In this document: positions 6,085-63,130 of the stretch, piece by piece | How positions within the stretch are numbered: position 1 is the first letter of the stretch | Layout: every line of letters starts with the position of its first letter | Source: Lactococcus protaetiae | Lineage (GTDB): Bacteria; Bacillota; Bacilli; Lactobacillales; Streptococcaceae | NCBI RefSeq assembly: GCF_006965445.1 | Contig: NZ_CP041356.1 | Coordinates: 1,302,001 to 1,366,000 of the forward strand | DNA: 64,000 nt | Direction of reading: 5' to 3' | The notes under the pieces: generated by a model | The model's database searches: none | Seen by the model: the letters and a program-made list of their open reading frames with translations, nothing else | What the model was told of the DNA's origin: nothing | Made by a program: the position numbers and the translations under genes

Positions 6085-6723
6085 ATGGGAAAATTACTCA
6101 ATGTTAGTAGTCCTGTAATGCGGGTGATGGCGCGTGTCACAGATCTTGTGATTTTGAATACGTTGTTTATTCTGACAGCTTTGCCGCTCATTACGATAGG
6201 TGCGAGTTTGTGTGCTTTGCAGACTAATTTGCAGAAAATCTTGAGGCATCGTGAATCAGGGTTGGTGCGCGACTATTTTCGGGTTTTTAAGCAGAATTTT
6301 AAACAGGCAACTTTACTTTGGATGGGAATTTTGTTGCTTGTATTTATTTTGTTTGCAGATTTTCGATTGATTAATCGTTTGCCGATTCCTGTTGAATTTT
6401 TGCTGGGAGTAGCTGCGGGGATTTTGGCTATTTTGTTAGCTGTGGTGGCTATTTATGGATTTGCTTATCTGGGACGGTATGAAAATTCAATGAAAATGAT
6501 GTTGCGAAACGTCATCGTTTTGAGTTTACAAAATTTATTTCAGACAATATTTTTATTGGTTTTTAATGGATTTGTGATTTATTTTACAATTTCTAGTCCA
6601 GAAGCACTTTTGACAATGATTTATGTGTTTACTTTTGGAGGCTTTGCAGTAGTAAATCTTGCTTCTGCAGTAATGATTAAGCAAGTTTTTGATAGAATAG
6701 AGAAAAATAAAAAAGCAGACTGA
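6085..6723 (+). CDS. DUF624 (YesL-like) membrane protein
   Basis: A 212-residue protein with about five hydrophobic segments and the characteristic start FxVSSPVMRVMARVTDLVILN, matching the DUF624/YesL family. Members are found almost only beside oligosaccharide ABC importers and glycosidases, as here, but their biochemical role is unknown. The ribosome site GAGGGTGGGAG lies just upstream. The stop overlaps a cluster of CTGACAG and CTGTCAG words (6719-6746), and the GH31 gene follows after 44 bases. Confidence 0.75.
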   Translation: MGKLLNVSSPVMRVMARVTDLVILNTLFILTALPLITIGASLCALQTNLQKILRHRESGLVRDYFRVFKQNFKQATLLWMGILLLVFILFADFRLINRLPIPVEFLLGVAAGILAILLAVVAIYGFAYLGRYENSMKMMLRNVIVLSLQNLFQTIFLLVFNGFVIYFTISSPEALLTMIYVFTFGGFAVVNLASAVMIKQVFDRIEKNKKAD

Positions 6724-6767
6724 CAGCTTTCTGTCAGTGCTGACAGTGAGAAATAAATGGTAAAAAA

Positions 6768-8978
6768 ATGAAGAATAATAAAATTATTTTTGAAAAGGCA
6801 CGATTTACTGTGCTGACGGAGCAATTGATTCGGATTGAATACAGTGAAACAGGTCAATTTGAAGAAGGTCAGACGCAGATTGTGCAAAATAGGGATTTTC
6901 CCGCTGTGGACTTTGATATGATTGAAAAGGAAAATTCGCTTGAGATTTTGACTTCCTCTGTGCATTTGTACTATACAGGTGGTGAATTTTCAAAATCAAA
7001 TCTCTTTGCGGATGTAAAATTTAATTTCTCGGTTTACTCTAACCGCTGGTATTTTGGCGAAGAGATTGAGGATAACTTGGGAGGAACAACGCGAACGCTT
7101 GATAAGGTTGATGGGTCATGCCGATTAGAAGATGGTATCATGTCAAAAAATGGATATGCGGTGCTGACAGATAGCAGTTTAGTACTGACAGAAAATGGGG
7201 ACATTGCAGGTCATTCTGTCAGTAGTGTTGATTTGTATTTGTTTGCTTACGGTCGTGATTATCGTAAGGCTTTGCGTGATTATTATCTATTGACAGGACC
7301 GACACCTGCTTTACCTCGTTTTGCGCTGGGAAATTGGTGGAGTCGCTATTATGAATATTCAGCAGGTTCATATTTGGCGTTAATGGATCGATTTACAGCT
7401 GAGAAAATTCCTTTGTCTGTTGCGGTGATTGACATGGATTGGCATCGAGTCAGTGACGTTCCAGCAAAATATGGTTCAAGTTGGACAGGCTATTCTTGGA
7501 ATAAGAAATTGTTTCCAGAGCCAGAAAAATTTTTGAATGCTTTGCATCAACGTGGTGTAAAAGTGACGCTAAATGATCATCCTGCTGATGGTATTCGAGC
7601 TTTTGAGGATATATATCCTGTGGTTGCTGAGCGGATGGATTTAGATAAAGGATTGGAAGAAGCAGCAAAGTTTGACTTTGATAATCCGGAGTTTCGCGCC
7701 ACTTATTTTGAGGATGTGCATGGACTTTTAGAGAAATATGGCACGGACTTTTGGTGGCTGGATTGGCAACAGGGCGCCATTTCTAGCTCTGGTGCAGATC
7801 CGCTTTGGCTCTTGAATCATTATCAATATGCAGATAGTTTGAAGAAATCGGGAAATGGAATGCTTTTGAGTCGTTATGCAGGTCCAGGCTCTCACCGTTA
7901 TCCAATTGGATTTTCAGGAGATACAGTTATTTCATGGGCGAGCTTAGATTTTCAACCTTATTTTACAAGTACGGCGACAAATATTGGCTATACTTGGTGG
8001 AGTCATGATATTGGCGGTCACATGCAAGGTTCAAAAGATGCTGAATTGACACTACGCTGGATTCAATATGGGGTGTTTTCTCCGATTAACCGTTTACATT
8101 CATCAAAATCAGAGTTTACGAGTAAGGAACCTTGGCATTTTGATGCGGTTGTTGCAGCATCAATGAAGAATTTTTTAAGGCTTCGTCATGAACTCATTCC
8201 GTATCTTTATACTGCAAATCTCAGGACAGCACAGGAAGGGCGGGCACTGATTGAGCCGCTTTATTATGAATATCCGCTTGATGATGCGGCTTATCGGCAT
8301 CCGAATCAGTATTTCTTTGGAGATCAGCTGATGGTTGCACCAATAACAAAGAAGATGAATATTGAGCTGCAAATGAGTGGAGTCGAAGTTTGGCTTCCTA
8401 AAGGAATTTGGTACGATTTTTTTACAGGTCAAAGATATGATGGAGATGTAGAGATAAAAGTATTCCGAGAAATCACTGAGATACCAGTATTTGCAAGGGC
8501 AGGTGCCATTATCCCTATGGATAAAAACCCTTTGAAGAATGAAGAAGTACCAAGTGAAATAGTTTGGAAAATCTTTCCAGGTGCTGATGGTCAGTATGTT
8601 TTGCTTGAAGATGGTCGAAAAACGACGGCTAGCATCACTGACGGGATTCTGTCAGTGCTGACAAGTTCTGATTTGCAAGATGATAGTTTGTCAGTCCGTA
8701 AACACTCGATTATTTATGGAGGACGTGAGGTTGCGACAAATCTGATGGGAGACTTTGAGTTGGATTTAAAAACTTTTAGTGCCGAATTTGACTGGGGCTT
8801 CAAGGAAAATTTATTTAGACGTTTGGATATTGCAGAAATTGATTATGTTGATAAGGACGAGATTTTTAATCGTTTGTCAGTACTGACAGAGTTTGATAAG
8901 CGAGTTGCTTTTATCAAAAGTTTAAAAAATGTTGATTTACAAGATAATTTATTTGAATTACTTTATAGTGGAAAATAA
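6768..8978 (+). CDS. family 31 glycoside hydrolase (alpha-glycosidase)
   Basis: A 736-residue retaining alpha-glycosidase. The GH31 core is clear: DMDWH near residue 225, the nucleophile region WWLDWQQG (Asp about 332), the acid/base region GFSGDT (Asp about 385) and SHDIGGH. An N-terminal beta-sandwich precedes the barrel, and C-terminal beta domains follow it. No signal peptide is visible, so it probably acts in the cytoplasm on sugars imported by the preceding ABC system. GH31 includes alpha-glucosidases, alpha-xylosidases, sulfoquinovosidases and alpha-N-acetylgalactosaminidases; I cannot assign the sugar. The gene contains several CTGWCAG words (7168, 7190, 7217, 8650, 8885). Confidence 0.85.
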   Translation: MKNNKIIFEKARFTVLTEQLIRIEYSETGQFEEGQTQIVQNRDFPAVDFDMIEKENSLEILTSSVHLYYTGGEFSKSNLFADVKFNFSVYSNRWYFGEEIEDNLGGTTRTLDKVDGSCRLEDGIMSKNGYAVLTDSSLVLTENGDIAGHSVSSVDLYLFAYGRDYRKALRDYYLLTGPTPALPRFALGNWWSRYYEYSAGSYLALMDRFTAEKIPLSVAVIDMDWHRVSDVPAKYGSSWTGYSWNKKLFPEPEKFLNALHQRGVKVTLNDHPADGIRAFEDIYPVVAERMDLDKGLEEAAKFDFDNPEFRATYFEDVHGLLEKYGTDFWWLDWQQGAISSSGADPLWLLNHYQYADSLKKSGNGMLLSRYAGPGSHRYPIGFSGDTVISWASLDFQPYFTSTATNIGYTWWSHDIGGHMQGSKDAELTLRWIQYGVFSPINRLHSSKSEFTSKEPWHFDAVVAASMKNFLRLRHELIPYLYTANLRTAQEGRALIEPLYYEYPLDDAAYRHPNQYFFGDQLMVAPITKKMNIELQMSGVEVWLPKGIWYDFFTGQRYDGDVEIKVFREITEIPVFARAGAIIPMDKNPLKNEEVPSEIVWKIFPGADGQYVLLEDGRKTTASITDGILSVLTSSDLQDDSLSVRKHSIIYGGREVATNLMGDFELDLKTFSAEFDWGFKENLFRRLDIAEIDYVDKDEIFNRLSVLTEFDKRVAFIKSLKNVDLQDNLFELLYSGK

Positions 8979-11359: not shown

Positions 11360-11906
11360 TGGAGGTTATGAGGCTTGAGGTGATTACTTCATGGTGGAGG
11401 ATTTTCCCTCACCAATGTTAGGGTACAACCTCTAGGTGCAACACAACTATCTTCGCTTTGCTACGCTGTCGATTTCACTAAGCCACTAAAGTGGCAAGTT
11501 CAAATCGCAATCGACCTGTACGCAGCTGAAGCTGCAATGGTCTGCTTAACAGATTACACCTCGGTTTCACTTCGTTATCCATTCGTTCTATCTGCTGTCC
11601 ACACCACGGGTATCCATGCTCACTACGGTGCTACGTGCTACGTGCTTCGCGCGCCGTTCTACGAACGGTCTCCGCAACTTCGTTGCTCCGCTGTCCATTT
11701 GATTGCCATTTGGCGTTGGCACTTTAGTGCCTTACAGCCAATGGTCATGCGAAGCTAGCTGCTAAAGTAGCAAGAGCAAAAGGCAAAGCACCGAGTCGCA
11801 ATGGTTCTCGCTAAGTGGCTAAAGTCACAAACCGCTAAGACCATAGGCAGTAGAGCGAATGGACAAGGGATTCCAAAGGAGGCGGAGATAGCAAGCGCTT
11901 GCCAAG
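11360..11906. repeat. mosaic hairpin repeat, copy 5 (expanded beta form)
   Basis: It starts with GAGGTGATTACTTC and the stem CATGGTGGAGG/CCTCACCAATG, then TTAGGGTACAACCTCTAGG. It continues with several inserted hairpins (CCACTAAAGTGG, GCAGCTGAAGCTGC, CCGTTC-TAC-GAACGG, GCTGCTAAAGTAGC) and ends with GAGATAGCAAGCGCTTGCC. The final AAGTTAA supplies the menC stop codon on the minus strand. At about 545 bp it is among the longest copies. Confidence 0.75.
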
Positions 11907-28545: not shown

Positions 28546-29472
28546 ATGAAAGAAATTTTAGATAAAATTAAAGAATATAATACAATTCTTATTCATAGAC
28601 ATAAAAATCCAGATCCAGATGCGATTGGTTCTCAAGCTGGACTTCGCGCTATTTTAAGGGAAAACTTTCCAGAGAAAAAGATTTACGCAGTGGGTTATGA
28701 TGAACCAACATTGACTTATTTAGCGGAAATGGATACAGTAACTTTAGAGGAAAATGAAAAATATCTAAGCATTGTTTGTGATACAGCAAATACGCCAAGA
28801 ATTGATGATGACCGCTGGAAAACGGCTGATTTTGTGATTAAAATTGACCACCATCCAAATGATGATGCTTATGGTAATTTATTATTGGTTGAGCCAGAAC
28901 GTAGCTCTGCTTCAGAAATTATTGCTAATCTTGCTTTTGAAAATAATCTGCGTATGAACGCGGAAGCAGCACGTTTGCTTTATGGAGGAATTGTTGGCGA
29001 TACGGGTCGTTTTCTGTATCCTGCGACCTCTCCTAATACCTTGAGGGTGGCGTCAAGGCTGGCTGAGTATGATTTTGACCGTGCAGCTTTGGGAAGAGAA
29101 ATGTCATCGTTTGACATGAAGGTGGCGCGTTTACAAGGTTTCGTTTATGAAAATATGGAACTTTCAGAAAATGGTGCTGCGCGCGTGCTTTTGACACAGG
29201 AGCTTTTGAAAAAATTTGCACTTCGAGATGCTGAAACTTCAAGTATTGTTAGTGTGCCAGGAAATATCCGTGGCATTGAATCTTGGGCGATTTTTGTAGA
29301 GCAAGCAGATGGACATTTCCGAGTTCGGATGCGCTCAAAAGTTGTTCCAATCAATGAAATTGCAAAGGCGCATGATGGAGGTGGGCATCCTCTTGCCTCA
29401 GGAGCAAATTCATATTCGCTGGAGGAAAATGAAAAGATTTGGCAAGAATTGCAAGATAATTTGAAAAAATGA
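28546..29472 (+). CDS. nrnA: DHH/DHHA1 phosphoesterase, NrnA/Pde2-like
   Basis: A 308-residue cytoplasmic enzyme. Motifs: HKNPDPDAIGSQAGL (motif I), VCDTAN (II), IDHHPNDD (the DHH motif), and the C-terminal DHHA1 substrate loop GGGHPLASGA. Family members hydrolyse nanoRNA, pApA and pAp. In streptococci the homologue Pde2 degrades the pApA made from cyclic di-AMP by GdpP, and a gdpP gene is present at 35595. The exact substrate preference is inferred. A CTGACAG/CTGTCAG pair follows the stop codon. Confidence 0.85.
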   Translation: MKEILDKIKEYNTILIHRHKNPDPDAIGSQAGLRAILRENFPEKKIYAVGYDEPTLTYLAEMDTVTLEENEKYLSIVCDTANTPRIDDDRWKTADFVIKIDHHPNDDAYGNLLLVEPERSSASEIIANLAFENNLRMNAEAARLLYGGIVGDTGRFLYPATSPNTLRVASRLAEYDFDRAALGREMSSFDMKVARLQGFVYENMELSENGAARVLLTQELLKKFALRDAETSSIVSVPGNIRGIESWAIFVEQADGHFRVRMRSKVVPINEIAKAHDGGGHPLASGANSYSLEENEKIWQELQDNLKK

Positions 29473-29518
29473 TACTGACAGAGTTCTGTCAGTAAATGAG
29501 GCACGCTCTTGTTTTGAT

Positions 29519-29552
29519 AAAAATCACTGACAGAAATTTTGTCAGTGATTTT
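29519..29552. terminator. bidirectional terminator made from CTGACAG/TGTCAG arms
   Basis: AAAATCACTGACA pairs with TTGTCAGTGATTTT around a short loop, between two convergent genes (nrnA-like and asparaginase). The stem contains the repeated word on each arm, the arrangement in which uptake sequences form terminators in Neisseria and Haemophilus. Confidence 0.85.
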
Positions 29553-29556
29553 CTAA

Positions 29557-30522
29557 TTAATTTTCCATAAAATCGCGAAGTTGTTCAAGTGTCAAGCCAG
29601 CATTTAAAGCAATAATTAATTTGATTCGCGCTTTTTGTGAATTTACTTCATCAGCGAACATCACGCCAGCATCATGAAGCTGCGAACCGCCACCCTCATA
29701 AGAATACACAGGTTCAGCAATTCCATTGAAACAACGTGAAACAAGAACGACGGGAATATTATTTTTTAACAAGCGTTGTAAGGACTGACTTGCGATAGGT
29801 GGTAAATTTCCAGCGCCGAGTGCCTCAATGACAATCCCGTCTAGTTTTTCCAAATCAAGTAAATCTAAAATTTGTCCAGTCATTCCCGCAAACGCTTTGA
29901 CAATAGGAACATTTCCGTGGACAGTGTGGCTTTCCAGATGTTGGTTTTCACTATCTTTGTGAAAATAAATAATTTTGTTTTTTGTCAGTAAACCAAGTGG
30001 ACCGTGAGTCGGCGTTTGAAAAGTTGAAACATTGGTTGTGTGAGTTTTTGTGACATAACGTGCAGAGTGGATTTCGTCATTCATCACCACAAGCACACCA
30101 CGGTCATAGGAATTCTTGTCAGCAGCAACACGAATGGCTGTCAGTAAGTTATAAATTCCATCAGTACCCAATTCATTGCTTGAGCGCATTGCACCTGTCA
30201 AAACAATAGGTTTGCCTCGAGAAAGCGTCGTATCAAGAAAGAAGGCTGTTTCTTCAAGCGTATCAGTGCCATGAGTGATGACGGCGCCATCAAAAGCTTC
30301 AGCAATAAAAGCAGTTTTGATACGATTTTTAAGAACTAACATATCTGTCAGTGTGATATGAGGACTCGGTAAATTAAAGATATCCTCTGTGACTAACTCA
30401 ACTTCTCCTAACTGCAAATTTACAGCATTCATGGGATTAATGTTGTTTGGAGAAACGTGCCCATTTTCATCTTCAGCCATTGAGATTGTTCCACCAGTGT
30501 GTAGTACTAATATTTTTTTCAT
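29557..30522 (-). CDS. ansA: type I L-asparaginase
   Basis: A 321-residue cytoplasmic amidohydrolase converting asparagine to aspartate and ammonia. Both catalytic signatures are present: VLHTGGTISM with the nucleophile Thr near the N-terminus, and ITHGTDTLEETAFFLD with the Thr-Asp pair. The start at 30522 (MKKILVLHTGG) is chosen because GAGGA lies upstream; the open frame extends 53 codons further, but that extension has no family resemblance. It is convergent with the nrnA-like gene. Confidence 0.9.
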   Translation of the reverse strand: MKKILVLHTGGTISMAEDENGHVSPNNINPMNAVNLQLGEVELVTEDIFNLPSPHITLTDMLVLKNRIKTAFIAEAFDGAVITHGTDTLEETAFFLDTTLSRGKPIVLTGAMRSSNELGTDGIYNLLTAIRVAADKNSYDRGVLVVMNDEIHSARYVTKTHTTNVSTFQTPTHGPLGLLTKNKIIYFHKDSENQHLESHTVHGNVPIVKAFAGMTGQILDLLDLEKLDGIVIEALGAGNLPPIASQSLQRLLKNNIPVVLVSRCFNGIAEPVYSYEGGGSQLHDAGVMFADEVNSQKARIKLIIALNAGLTLEQLRDFMEN

Positions 30523-42431: not shown

Positions 42432-42545
42432 TGACTGTAGAGTTTGTCAGCATACTGACAGAAGCAAAAAACTGTCAGTAGTTCGTTGTAAGTTTTAAAG
42501 TGATTACTTCAATTTCTGTCGGATTTAATCTACTGACAACAACAA
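42432..42545. repeat. CTGWCAG cluster between trmB and nrdR with a partial beta end
   Basis: TTGTCAGCATACTGACAG (42443-42460) and CTGTCAG at 42467 are followed by AAAGTGATTACTTCAATTTC, which matches the beta end of the mosaic repeat, and then by CTGACAA. The two repeat types are side by side here. Confidence 0.6.
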
Positions 42546-43040: not shown

Positions 43041-43083
43041 CTGTCAGTGTGCTGACAAGCATTGTCAGTTGTCAGTAAAACCA
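43041..43083. repeat. four CTGWCAG-type words after nrdR
   Basis: CTGTCAGTGTGCTGACAA is followed by TTGTCAG and TTGTCAGT within 43 bases, in both orientations. It can form a weak hairpin behind nrdR and has no T-run. Confidence 0.55.
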
Positions 43084-46749: not shown

Positions 46750-46768
46750 TGTCAGTATGCTGACAGAA
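46750..46768. repeat. CTGTCAG/CTGACAG inverted pair after the pentapeptide gene
   Basis: CTGTCAGTATGCTGACAG is a near-perfect inverted pair with no T-run. It is another of the repeated words in an intergenic setting. Confidence 0.6.
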
Positions 46769-58611: not shown

Positions 58612-58645
58612 GCTGACAGAATCTTGTCAGTACTGACAGAACTTA
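58612..58645 (+). repeat. CTGWCAG triple between nusA and ylxR
   Basis: CTGACAG (58612) is followed by TTGTCAGTACTGACAG (58627-58641), a perfect palindromic pair. It sits in the 80-base nusA-ylxR gap. Confidence 0.65.
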
Positions 58646-59899: not shown

Positions 59900-62743
59900 T
59901 TGTCTGATAAGAAACGTATTAACCAAATTGCAAAAGAAACAGGACTGACAAATGCTGAACTTGTAAATGCTGCAAAGCATTTGGGCTTTGATGTTAAATC
60001 ACATTCAAGTTCAGTCACAGAAGACCAAGCAGCTAAAATCATTGAAAGCGTAAAAACAGGCGTGAAACCAGCTGCAAAATCTACTGACAAACCTGTCAGC
60101 ACGCCTAAAAAAGCTGTCAGTACTGACAAAAAGAAAACTGATGGTCCACGTACATTTGCTGGTAAGACTATCGTTGAAGACCCTGCAATCTTGGCACGAA
60201 TTAAAGCAAAAGAAGAAGCAGAAAAAGCAGCTAAATCTGTAGAACATAAAACTGTTGACACCGTCGTAGCTGCTGAAAATGGAAAATCTACTGACAAAAT
60301 TTCATCAGAGAAGCAATCTACTGACAAAAAACTGTCAGTAAAACCAGAAGTGAAAACTGAGCCTAAAGTGGCGGAAAAACCAGAAATAAAATCTGAAACA
60401 GTGACACCTAAAAAAGAAACAAAAGTGGACAAAGGAGTTGCTGACAAAAAGGAGCCTGTCATTACTGACGAAAAGAAAAAACCATTGAATCACAAACCAA
60501 GAATTCAAATCAAAGTTGTAAAACGTGCAGAAGATATCAAAAAAGAGCAAGCTGCTGCCCGTCCTGAAAAGAAACATTCTGACAAAAAACCATTTGATAA
60601 AAAACGTGGCAATGACAGAAATAATCGTACTGACAATCGTCATTCAGGACAAGCTAATCAAGGCGGAAATCGTTTTGACAAGAATCGTCCAGCTACTCAA
60701 GGACAAAATCGTGATAAAGCCTCTTCAACGACTTCAACAGCAGAGGTTTTTGCACCAGCAGCAGGTGGTAAAAACAATCGTCGCTCTCGTGAACGTGATA
60801 AATCTAAGAATTCACACGATAACACACAAGATGGTAATCGTAAAGGTGGACCACTTCGCGTTAATGATAATCGTAATCAAGTGCGTAATGCGCGTAATTC
60901 TAACTGGAATGCAGGTAAGAATAAACGTGGCGGACGTAATCAACAATCCATGCCAACAAGTCAACGTAAATTCCATGAATTGCCAGAATCAGTGGAATAC
61001 GAAATTGGTATGAATGTTCAAGACCTTGCAAAATTGCTTAAACGTGAGTCAGCAGAAATCATTAAAAAATTGTTCATGATGGGTACGATGGTTAATCAAA
61101 ACCAAAGTCTTGACCAAGAAACAATTGAATTAATTTTGATGGATTATGGTGTTGAAGCTGTCCAAAAAGTAGAAGAAGATAAATCAGATATCGAGCGTCT
61201 GTTTGTTGAAGAGGGTTATCTTGACGAAGATAAAATGGTTGAACGTCCAGCAGTTGTCACAATTATGGGTCACGTTGACCACGGTAAGACAACATTGCTC
61301 GACCGTTTCCGCGAATCTCGTGTCACTGAAGGCGAAGCAGGTGGTATCACACAGCACATCGGAGCTTATCAAATTACAACAAATGGCAAGAAAATCACAT
61401 TCCTTGATACACCAGGGCATGAGGCTTTCACAAGTATGCGTGCGCGTGGTGCCTCTGTTACTGATATCACAATCCTTGTCGTAGCAGCCGACGACGGTGT
61501 TATGCCTCAAACCATTGAAGCAATTAATCACTCAAAAGCTGCTGGAGTACCAATTATTGTTGCAATCAACAAAATTGATAAACCAGGGGCAAACCCACAA
61601 CGTGTGATTCAAGAACTTTCAGAACACGGTGTTATGCCTCAATCATGGGGTGGAGAATCTGAATTTGTCGAAATTTCAGCCAAATTCAACCAAAACCTTG
61701 ATGAATTGCTTGATACAGTGCTTCTTGTTGCCGAAATGCAAGAACTCAAAGCAGATCCAACGGTTCGTGCCATTGGTACAGTGGTTGAAGCTAGACTTGA
61801 CCAAGGTAAAGGAGCAATCGCTACACTCTTGGTTCAACAAGGAACGCTTCATATTCAAGACCCTATTGTTGTCGGAAATACCTATGGACGCGTACGTACA
61901 ATGACTAATGACCTAGGTCGTCGTATTAAAGAAGCTGGTCCATCAACTCCGATAGAGTTAACAGGGCTTTCCGATGTGCCACAAGCTGGTGACCATTTTG
62001 CGGTCTTTGAAGACGAAAAATCAGCACGTAATGCTGGGGAAGAACGTGCAAAACGCGCCCAACTGATCAAACGTCAAAGTACACGCCGTGTTAATCTTGA
62101 TAATCTCTTTGATACACTCAAAGAGGGTCAAACAAAATCAGTTAATATTATTATCAAAGCCGATGTGCAAGGTTCTGCTGAAGCACTTGCTGCTTCACTT
62201 CAAAAAATTGAAGTTGAAGGGGTGAAAGTAGACATCGTTCACTCTGCTGTTGGTGCAATTAGCGAATCTGATATTTCACTTGCTGCGGCATCAAACGCGA
62301 TTATTATTGGTTTCAATGTGCGCCCAACAGGTCTTGCGCGTGAACAAGCGGCTCATGAAGAAGTAGATATTCGTTTGCATAGTATCATCTATAAAGTCAT
62401 TGAAGAAGTTGAAACTGCCATGCGTGGTATGCTTGATCCAGAGTTCAAAGAAGAAATCATTGGTGAAGCAATTGTTCGTGAAACATTCAACGTTTCTAAA
62501 GTTGGCACGATTGCCGGATTTATGGTTATCCGCGGTAAAGTAGCACGTGATGCCTCTGTTCGCGTGATTCGTGATGGAGTTGTCATTCATGATGGTGCCA
62601 TTGCTAGCTTGAAGCATTTTAAAGATGACGTCAAAGAAGTCGGAAATGCACAAGAAGGTGGTTTGATGGTCGAAAACTTCAACGACATTGCTATTGATGA
62701 CACATTTGAAGTCTACAAAATGGTAGAAATTGAACGTAAATAA
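59900..62743 (+). CDS. infB: translation initiation factor IF-2
   Basis: A 947-residue protein with a long Lys/Asp/Thr-rich N-terminal extension (about 1-350), then the GTPase domain GHVDHGKT (about 457-464), [12 protein letters not shown] and the C-terminal fMet-tRNA domain. The N-terminal extension contains many STDK/DK units encoded by CTGACAAA. The start is TTG at 59900, with AAAGGAGGAC upstream. IF-2 is essential. The region is intact. Confidence 0.96.
60085..60345 (+). repeat. CTGACAA/CTGTCAG-rich part of the infB N-terminal coding region
   Basis: CTGACAA and CTGTCAG words recur (60085, 60094, 60116, near 60291, 60313, 60330) and encode the repeating STDK-like peptide. The repeated DNA word seems to have shaped a disordered protein region. 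Confidence 0.6.
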
Positions 62744-62866: not shown

Positions 62867-63130
62867 GTTGAAGTTATTACTTCATTGGTGGGGATTCTTT
62901 TTCCCCACCAATGTTAGGGCCCAACCTCACATCAAAGATATGAGGTCACCCTGTCCCTGAAGTCTGAGCGCTAAAGCGCTAAGACCCTAGGGCAGTAGAA
63001 CGAAAGCGGAGCTTAGTGCTGCTATCCCGTCACCTTATAGAGGTGGGGGAATTGCGACTAGCCACTAAAGTGGCTAGTCGCAATCGATAGCGTAGCCCAA
63101 AGGTCGGAGATAGCACGCACTTGCTAAGTT
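62867..63130 (+). repeat. mosaic hairpin repeat, copy 16 (complete beta form)
   Basis: GAAGTTATTACTTC, ATTGGTGGGG/CCCCACCAAT, TTAGGGCCCAACCTCACATC, GCGC-TAAA-GCGC, CCCTAGGGC, AGTAGAACGAAAGC, CACCT-TATAG-AGGTG, an inserted GCCAC-TAAA-GTGGC hairpin, CCCAAAGGT and AGCACGCACTTGCT. Comparison with copy 4 shows two clean insertions. Confidence 0.85.

Follow-up and report, generated by a model that had tools for sequence, protein, structure and literature searches.

Word pairs at gene ends in the window

The window analysed here is a stretch of 64,000 nucleotides (G000:C1:1302001-1366000) from a Lactococcus genome that consists of a single contig, a 2.70-Mb chromosome of 2,696,018 bases. By its nusA, this genome is closest to other Lactococcus. 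Two convergent genes, nrnA (DHH/DHHA1), whose stop codon ends at 29472, and ansA (asparaginase), which ends at 29557, enclose a gap in which an earlier note on this DNA had seen hairpin-forming copies of a short word with the core CTGACAG. Direct reading confirms this observation: the gap holds two word hairpins, at 29474-29493 and at 29520-29552. The first of them (ACTGACAGAGTTCTGTCAGT, -12.7 kcal/mol) is located directly 3' of the nrnA stop codon and is accompanied by a T-run on the minus strand only, toward the transcript coming from the ansA side. The second (AAAATCACTGACAGAAATTTTGTCAGTGATTTT) folds at about -17.6 kcal/mol, has 16-nt arms that are 94% complementary as well as short T-tracts on both strands, and is predicted to be, probably, a bidirectional terminator between nrnA and ansA.

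Word groups had also been claimed behind five other genes, and all of them are found at these places: a triplet of words where the DUF624 gene ends (6720-6745), a triplet 3' of the trmB-type methyltransferase gene (42445-42478), four words 3' of nrdR (43042-43075), a tail-to-tail pair 3' of the pentapeptide gene (46750-46765) and a triplet in the nusA/ylxR gap (58613-58638). None of the five has a T-run on the gene strand, which leaves one of the six cited gene-end sites (29520-29552) with such a run after the hairpin. The nusA pair lies 21 nt 3' of nusA and 22 nt 5' of ylxR. The genes nusA, ylxR and infB form one operon, which a strong terminator at this pair would cut.

Palindromes of the same kind are present in the coding DNA of the window: the tail-to-tail palindrome TGTCAGTACTGACA occupies 8875-8888, and similar ones start at 8650, 12288, 12357, 16730, 26779, 43787, 43972 and 60115. 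The 5' part of infB (60084-60635), which encodes a variable N-terminal linker, is dense in words of the form CTGACAAA. About 30 bp with words are additionally present here, in frame, in the relative G016, and word arrays may therefore also expand via short duplication. The Rfam search of the window returned the small SRP RNA only (1616-1701, RF00169, 43.9 bits).

The density of the word within 60 nt of stop codons, a statistic suggested by the earlier note, was calculated on an 864-kb sample that is composed of the window and 40 evenly spaced 20-kb pieces (41 pieces in all), with 820 genes from our own greedy ORF calls of at least 80 aa. The enrichment proved to be strong: CTGACAG reaches 3.71/kb within 60 nt after the stop, compared with 1.48/kb within 60 nt before the start, 0.94/kb in other intergenic DNA and 0.56/kb in ORFs. 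The 60 nt after stops contain 116 of the 269 non-coding copies (0.43 vs 0.18 expected, p=1.4e-22), and none of eight control 7-mers was enriched after stops in the same sample. A simple scan of this sample predicted 181 terminators behind 552 gene ends; 47 of these hold the word, 14 of them as a word-word hairpin, while the control word is held by 0 of 181.

Our data thus agree with the claim that the pairs serve as terminators only in part: the word is indeed found in about a quarter of the predicted terminators, but five of the six sites cited for it lack the T-run on the gene strand. That termination is the main role of the word was rejected on account of these five sites and of the many coding pairs, since ORFs of the 864-kb sample contain 37 of its 76 hairpin-type pairs and 90 of the 169 that are tail-to-tail. 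Termination is a side-use of a larger word system: the word is found across the genome, coding DNA included, and the hairpins at gene ends seem to be a by-product of this.

Copy number, arrangement and spread of the word

The word TACTGACAG occurs 994 times in the genome of the window (G000), with 518 and 476 copies on the two strands, compared with 12 (6 and 6) for the reversed control. The 864-kb sample contains 286 copies against 5.8 expected, and for the shorter CTGACA the window has 101 copies where 30.1 would be expected, a count that none of 100 shuffles reached. The extended consensus in G000 is TACTGACAGAA. We regard it as practically certain that the genome carries a dispersed word with dialects.

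The copies are arranged in a characteristic manner. CTGACAG is present 656 times in the 864-kb sample, 387 times inside ORFs and 269 times in non-coding DNA, and a neighbouring copy lies within 80 bp in 239 of the 387 coding cases (62%) and in 220 of the 269 non-coding cases (82%), where random placement gives 9% and 21%. Several pair geometries are preferred in G000: tail-to-tail pairs stand at 9 bp (TTCTGTCAGTACTGACAGAA; 91 pairs, 60 of them coding) or at 11 bp (42 pairs), 53 pairs are head-to-head at 11-12 bp, and 22 are direct with a spacing of 21 bp; genome-wide, the head-to-head form CTGACAGA-N(0-8)-TCTGTCAG is found in 66 places vs 0. Words in ORFs take both orientations and several frames (215 on the same strand vs 168 on the opposite one). 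Of the 820 ORFs, 113 contain ACTGACAG, at positions distributed over the length of the gene, and the encoded peptides are, for example, VLTE, LSVL and SVST; the ComEA linker of G000 has serine-rich stretches of such a word-encoded type. One-mismatch neighbours of ACTGACAGA are frequent when the mismatch is at the ends (ACTGACAAA 124, GCTGACAGA 109) and near background within the TGAC core; the core looks strictly read and the word ends loosely. A 30-nt flank identical in at least 24 of 30 positions to that of another site was seen at only 16 of 285 sites. Since the flanks are hardly common between sites, the word is not a copied element.

The comparison of G000 with G016 (94.2% identity over 198 kb) places 96 of 100 G000 words in ungapped alignment. 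Within the core CTGACAG 20 of 672 positions differ (3.0%), in the flanks 160 of 2286 (7.0%) and in the outer TA 35 of 192 (18%): the core changes 2.3 times less than the flanks. This conservation is, if anything, underrated, because words picked in G000 bias the comparison toward loss in G016. Among distant species, some coding words stand in ungapped codon alignment with wordless orthologues (e.g. L045 8194-9148), and other words lie in gap-rich linkers. The nusA-ylxR gap of taiwanensis and of cremoris has words arranged in their own ways, and hircilactis and dk101 have words inside the 3' end of nusA.

Along the chromosome the word is spread evenly, with 5-12 copies per 10 kb in 37 of the 41 pieces, and it is nearly absent from the remaining four (0-2 per 10 kb), which include acquired-looking islands and, among their genes, unknown ones of surface type. 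These are L065 (0 per 10 kb; sortase, glycosyltransferase, polysaccharide export), L063 (0.5; AAA_10 ATPase and surface proteins, ICE-like by our reading), L050 (1.5; LXG) and L049 (2.0; a protein of 1651 aa that belongs to no Pfam family). Depletion of DNA uptake sequences (DUS) in the ICEs of Neisseriaceae was used to find such ICEs (PMC7371117), and the word-poor piece L063 is the parallel here. Seven stretches of about 20 kb around the prophage terminases of five relatives contain 19 words vs about 64 expected. This expectation is arithmetic on background densities, of which the one for cremoris comes from a single locus, and host DNA may be part of the stretches; the prophage stretches are word-depleted, not empty. 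No strand bias was found in either GC-skew half, or replichore (82/74 and 64/66), and this absence rules out replication and repair signals that need such a bias (Chi, KOPS).

Spellings across Lactococcus

The genome-wide counts of TACTGACAG divide the genus: hundreds of copies are present in 7 of 18 genomes (184 to 994), the signal is weak in two (55 and 74), and nine are near background, as are 100 genomes from other genera. K-mer scans of the relatives, followed by genome-wide counts vs control, revealed other spellings of the word. G000 and G016 have TACTGACAGAA, G001 and cremoris TTACTGACAGA, taiwanensis TTACTGACAG followed by C or A, hircilactis and sp. dk101 CAGTACTGACA, G006 TGCTGACGAA and nasutitermitis TTTTGACAGA. 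The spelling of hircilactis is found 994 times in its own genome (500 + 494, vs control 1), 42 times in fujiensis (vs control 1) and 0-2 times in five garvieae-group genomes; for fujiensis, no clear word had emerged from the k-mer scan. RCTGACGAA has 586 copies in G006 vs 82 for its control, and its counts are elevated (154-213) in several of the relatives that carry the main word, TTTTGACAGAAC has 304 copies in nasutitermitis vs control 1 and 0-10 in the other 17 genomes of the genus, and TTCTGACSA has 437 copies in L. insecticola (L014 / G120) vs control 34 and 34-79 in nine others. The unit is asymmetric in G001, because this genome has 17 copies of CAGTACTGACA vs 963 of TACTGACAG.

The spellings have the TGAC core in common and are arranged by clade. 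In a nusA tree of 22 taxa all ten species of the lactis clade carry a word with this core (fujiensis weakly), and sister species mostly have the same spelling. None of the words tested was found in the garvieae clade and in G012, a small-genome Lactococcus (1.7 Mb) with com genes. L. insecticola is placed apart, in the other clade, where its sampled relatives are wordless, and its word reflects either an independent origin or repeated loss. The geometry of the pairs also depends on the species: it is tail-to-tail in G000, G016, hircilactis and dk101 and head-to-head in nasutitermitis and taiwanensis, while G001 showed no preferred pair geometry. Whole palindromes dominate in hircilactis, and a palindromic arrangement of the word is dominant only in some Lactococcus species.

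Possible function, known systems and other repeats

Uptake words and, in a looser sense, HIP1 are the known causes of a word with hundreds of copies on both strands that sister species spell in related ways. We favour DNA uptake, because the word resembles the DUS of Neisseria and the uptake signal sequence (USS) of Haemophilus in copy number, strand symmetry, dialects, depletion in islands and re-use in terminators, and because the genus has competence genes. We consider it about an even chance that the word functions in DNA uptake. With the scales equally level, Lactococcus (L. cremoris included) may have an uptake-sequence system of its own, which would be the first of any Gram-positive, with one spelling for each species group and an uptake biased toward kin. 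The cited pairs are best explained as local copies of one recognition word, consensus TACTGACAGAA, which is found genome-wide on both strands alike and is kept at about 1,000 copies. A DNA-binding component of the natural-transformation machinery would prefer word-bearing DNA, by which kin DNA would enter cells more often; repeated uptake and recombination would raise the word where harm is small, as in gaps, at gene ends and in stretches that encode linkers, and inverted pairs after stop codons would have been co-opted as terminators. Such a receptor of the competence machinery would read clustered TGAC-core words, and it is expected to be cooperative or oligomeric because the words cluster within about 80 bp.

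The comEC gene is present in 17 and comGA in all 18 genomes of the genus, and both are intact in G000 and in most of the genus; L. lactis strains with complete com genes do transform (PMC11244767). However, comEC and comGA occur in the wordless garvieae group too, so a lineage-specific receptor would be needed. Against uptake stands the description of ComEA, the Gram-positive DNA receptor, as non-specific in a review (PMC12236230), as do the prophage stretches that are depleted but not empty. A comparison of ComEA and the comG operon proteins by eye gave no receptor candidate, and ComEA was rejected as the receptor by presence, as its layout is the same in word-bearing and wordless species (nasutitermitis left out). 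The region of G001 and cremoris that matches a published L. lactis rpsL donor has words upstream of rpsL and just behind fusA and none within rpsL-rpsG-fusA, and because of this lack the donor is unable to separate the hypotheses. A plasmid search found nothing.

The likeness to inverted DUS pairs of Neisseria, drawn in the earlier note, is apt, and 14 of the 181 predicted terminators are word-word hairpins. The word is also short, has many copies on both strands and forms clade dialects on a core, TGAC here and the conserved CTG in the DUS of Neisseriaceae (PMC3630211), inverted copies of which occur in Neisseria terminators (PMC1852404). It differs from DUS in its Gram-positive genus, its unrelated letters, its strong clustering and its fixed tail-to-tail palindromes; moreover, there are about 1,000 copies here vs thousands. 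Clustering within 80 bp, which is far beyond chance and is not described for DUS in the portions of the literature considered here, argues against a plain DUS. This main departure from the textbook case points to a protein that binds cooperatively, or to one of an altogether different kind. The one-mismatch neighbours within the TGAC core argue somewhat in the same direction, because they are at background and a simple mutation-drive balance predicts their excess.

TransTermHP and TerminatorNet reported uptake words in the terminators of Neisseriaceae and Pasteurellaceae, and the relevant parts of these papers name no Gram-positive case (PMC1852404, PMC13020248). The USS of Pasteurellaceae is likewise a dispersed word that is re-used in terminators, up to 22% in some USS species, compared with 47 of 181 predicted here (PMC1852404, PMC13020248, PMC2346458). 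As far as these sources describe it, USS favours one orientation in reading frames, and the word here likewise has 215 copies on the same strand and 168 on the opposite one; the bias toward termini within genes that is reported for USS is not evident here. The Gram-positive genus, the unrelated letters, the clustering with tail-to-tail palindromes and the number of about 1,000 copies separate the word from USS as well. In the open-licence literature, judged mostly from titles and the openings of abstracts, no uptake sequence was found for Lactococcus or other Gram-positive bacteria, which leaves its absence unproven.

A rival reading is that the word is bound by a cytoplasmic protein which oligomerises on DNA (a nucleoid organiser, or a factor for segregation or repair) and requires sites by the hundreds, in clusters and often inverted, with the terminators as a by-product. 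Clustering beyond chance at 80 bp, the fixed geometries (tail-to-tail 9 + 11 bp, head-to-head 11-12 bp, and direct 21 bp, which is about two helical turns), the dominance of whole palindromes in hircilactis and the failure of com genes to divide word-bearing from wordless species would all fit. Yet the pair geometry varies by species with none preferred in G001, the spread is even without an ori-ter or strand pattern, and a fast change of spelling would be unusual for such a protein; we hold this explanation to be possible and rather doubtful. A HIP1-like word, recognised by a methyltransferase and multiplied through a mismatch-repair bias, is improbable. HIP1 of cyanobacteria is indeed very frequent, occurs in coding as well as non-coding DNA and gives way to other words in certain species (PMC4390886), but HIP words are palindromes linked to a methyltransferase, whereas the unit here is asymmetric in part of the clade (G001), and neither gene-end enrichment nor clustering is expected of them.

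The same holds to a still greater degree for a dispersed mobile palindromic repeat (REP- or MITE-like) spread by copying, which we consider very improbable: pairs, clusters and some words in alignment gaps vs distant species would suit it, but the flanks differ between sites, the words are nearly all ungapped vs G016, several coding words are ungapped vs wordless orthologues, and none of the required empty sites with clean insertion borders was seen. Quite as little probability is assigned to regulator binding sites, as which similar motifs were read in a milk study of L. lactis MG1363, where TGTCAGT repeats, TCAGTWWACTG and CTGACAGWTCTRTCA were reported as putative regulatory motifs upstream of some operons (PMC3547956). 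The motifs llmg_m002 and llmg_m043 and the TGTCAGT repeats have the same letters as the word, in fragments; they were interpreted as regulator sites of a few operons, and genome-wide spread and dialects go unmentioned in the part of that study concerned with them (PMC3547956). A regulator is hard to reconcile with about 1,000 copies, 387 of 656 in ORFs, and with a density that is higher after stops than before starts. Terminators and gene-end hairpins alone are hardly credible: they would explain the gene-end enrichment and the word-bearing predicted terminators, but not the copies in ORFs on both strands and in several frames, nor the five cited sites that are not terminator-shaped.

Uptake or not, about 1,000 conserved copies with a species-specific spelling in a well-studied genus need a cause, and the word recasts the MG1363 motifs that were reported as regulatory sites. 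If uptake is the cause, kin-biased uptake arose here independently of the Neisseria and Haemophilus systems, L. cremoris, a model in dairy genetics, would be covered by it, and there would be a receptor to seek and a practical route to better transformation of dairy strains. Gram-positive uptake is held to be sequence-blind, and a review describes ComEA as non-specific (PMC12236230).

Two other kinds of repeats were noticed. In 121 kb of L. hircilactis (L108-L112 and L005), k-mers such as CCTATCAGTA and ACTCTCAACA recur about 48 times, probably as a CRISPR-type array. Another family of dispersed repeats, with a length of some 100 bp or more and with the pieces GCGGAGATAG, CGACTAG, CCCTAGGG and CAAAGGGCGGAGATAG, is present in the window on the plus strand near 11881, 41386 and 56789, with an inverted repeat at 63051-63084, and also in L035 and L074. 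Its piece GCGGAGATAG has 88 copies in the 864-kb sample, and its flanks, unlike those of the word, are common between copies.
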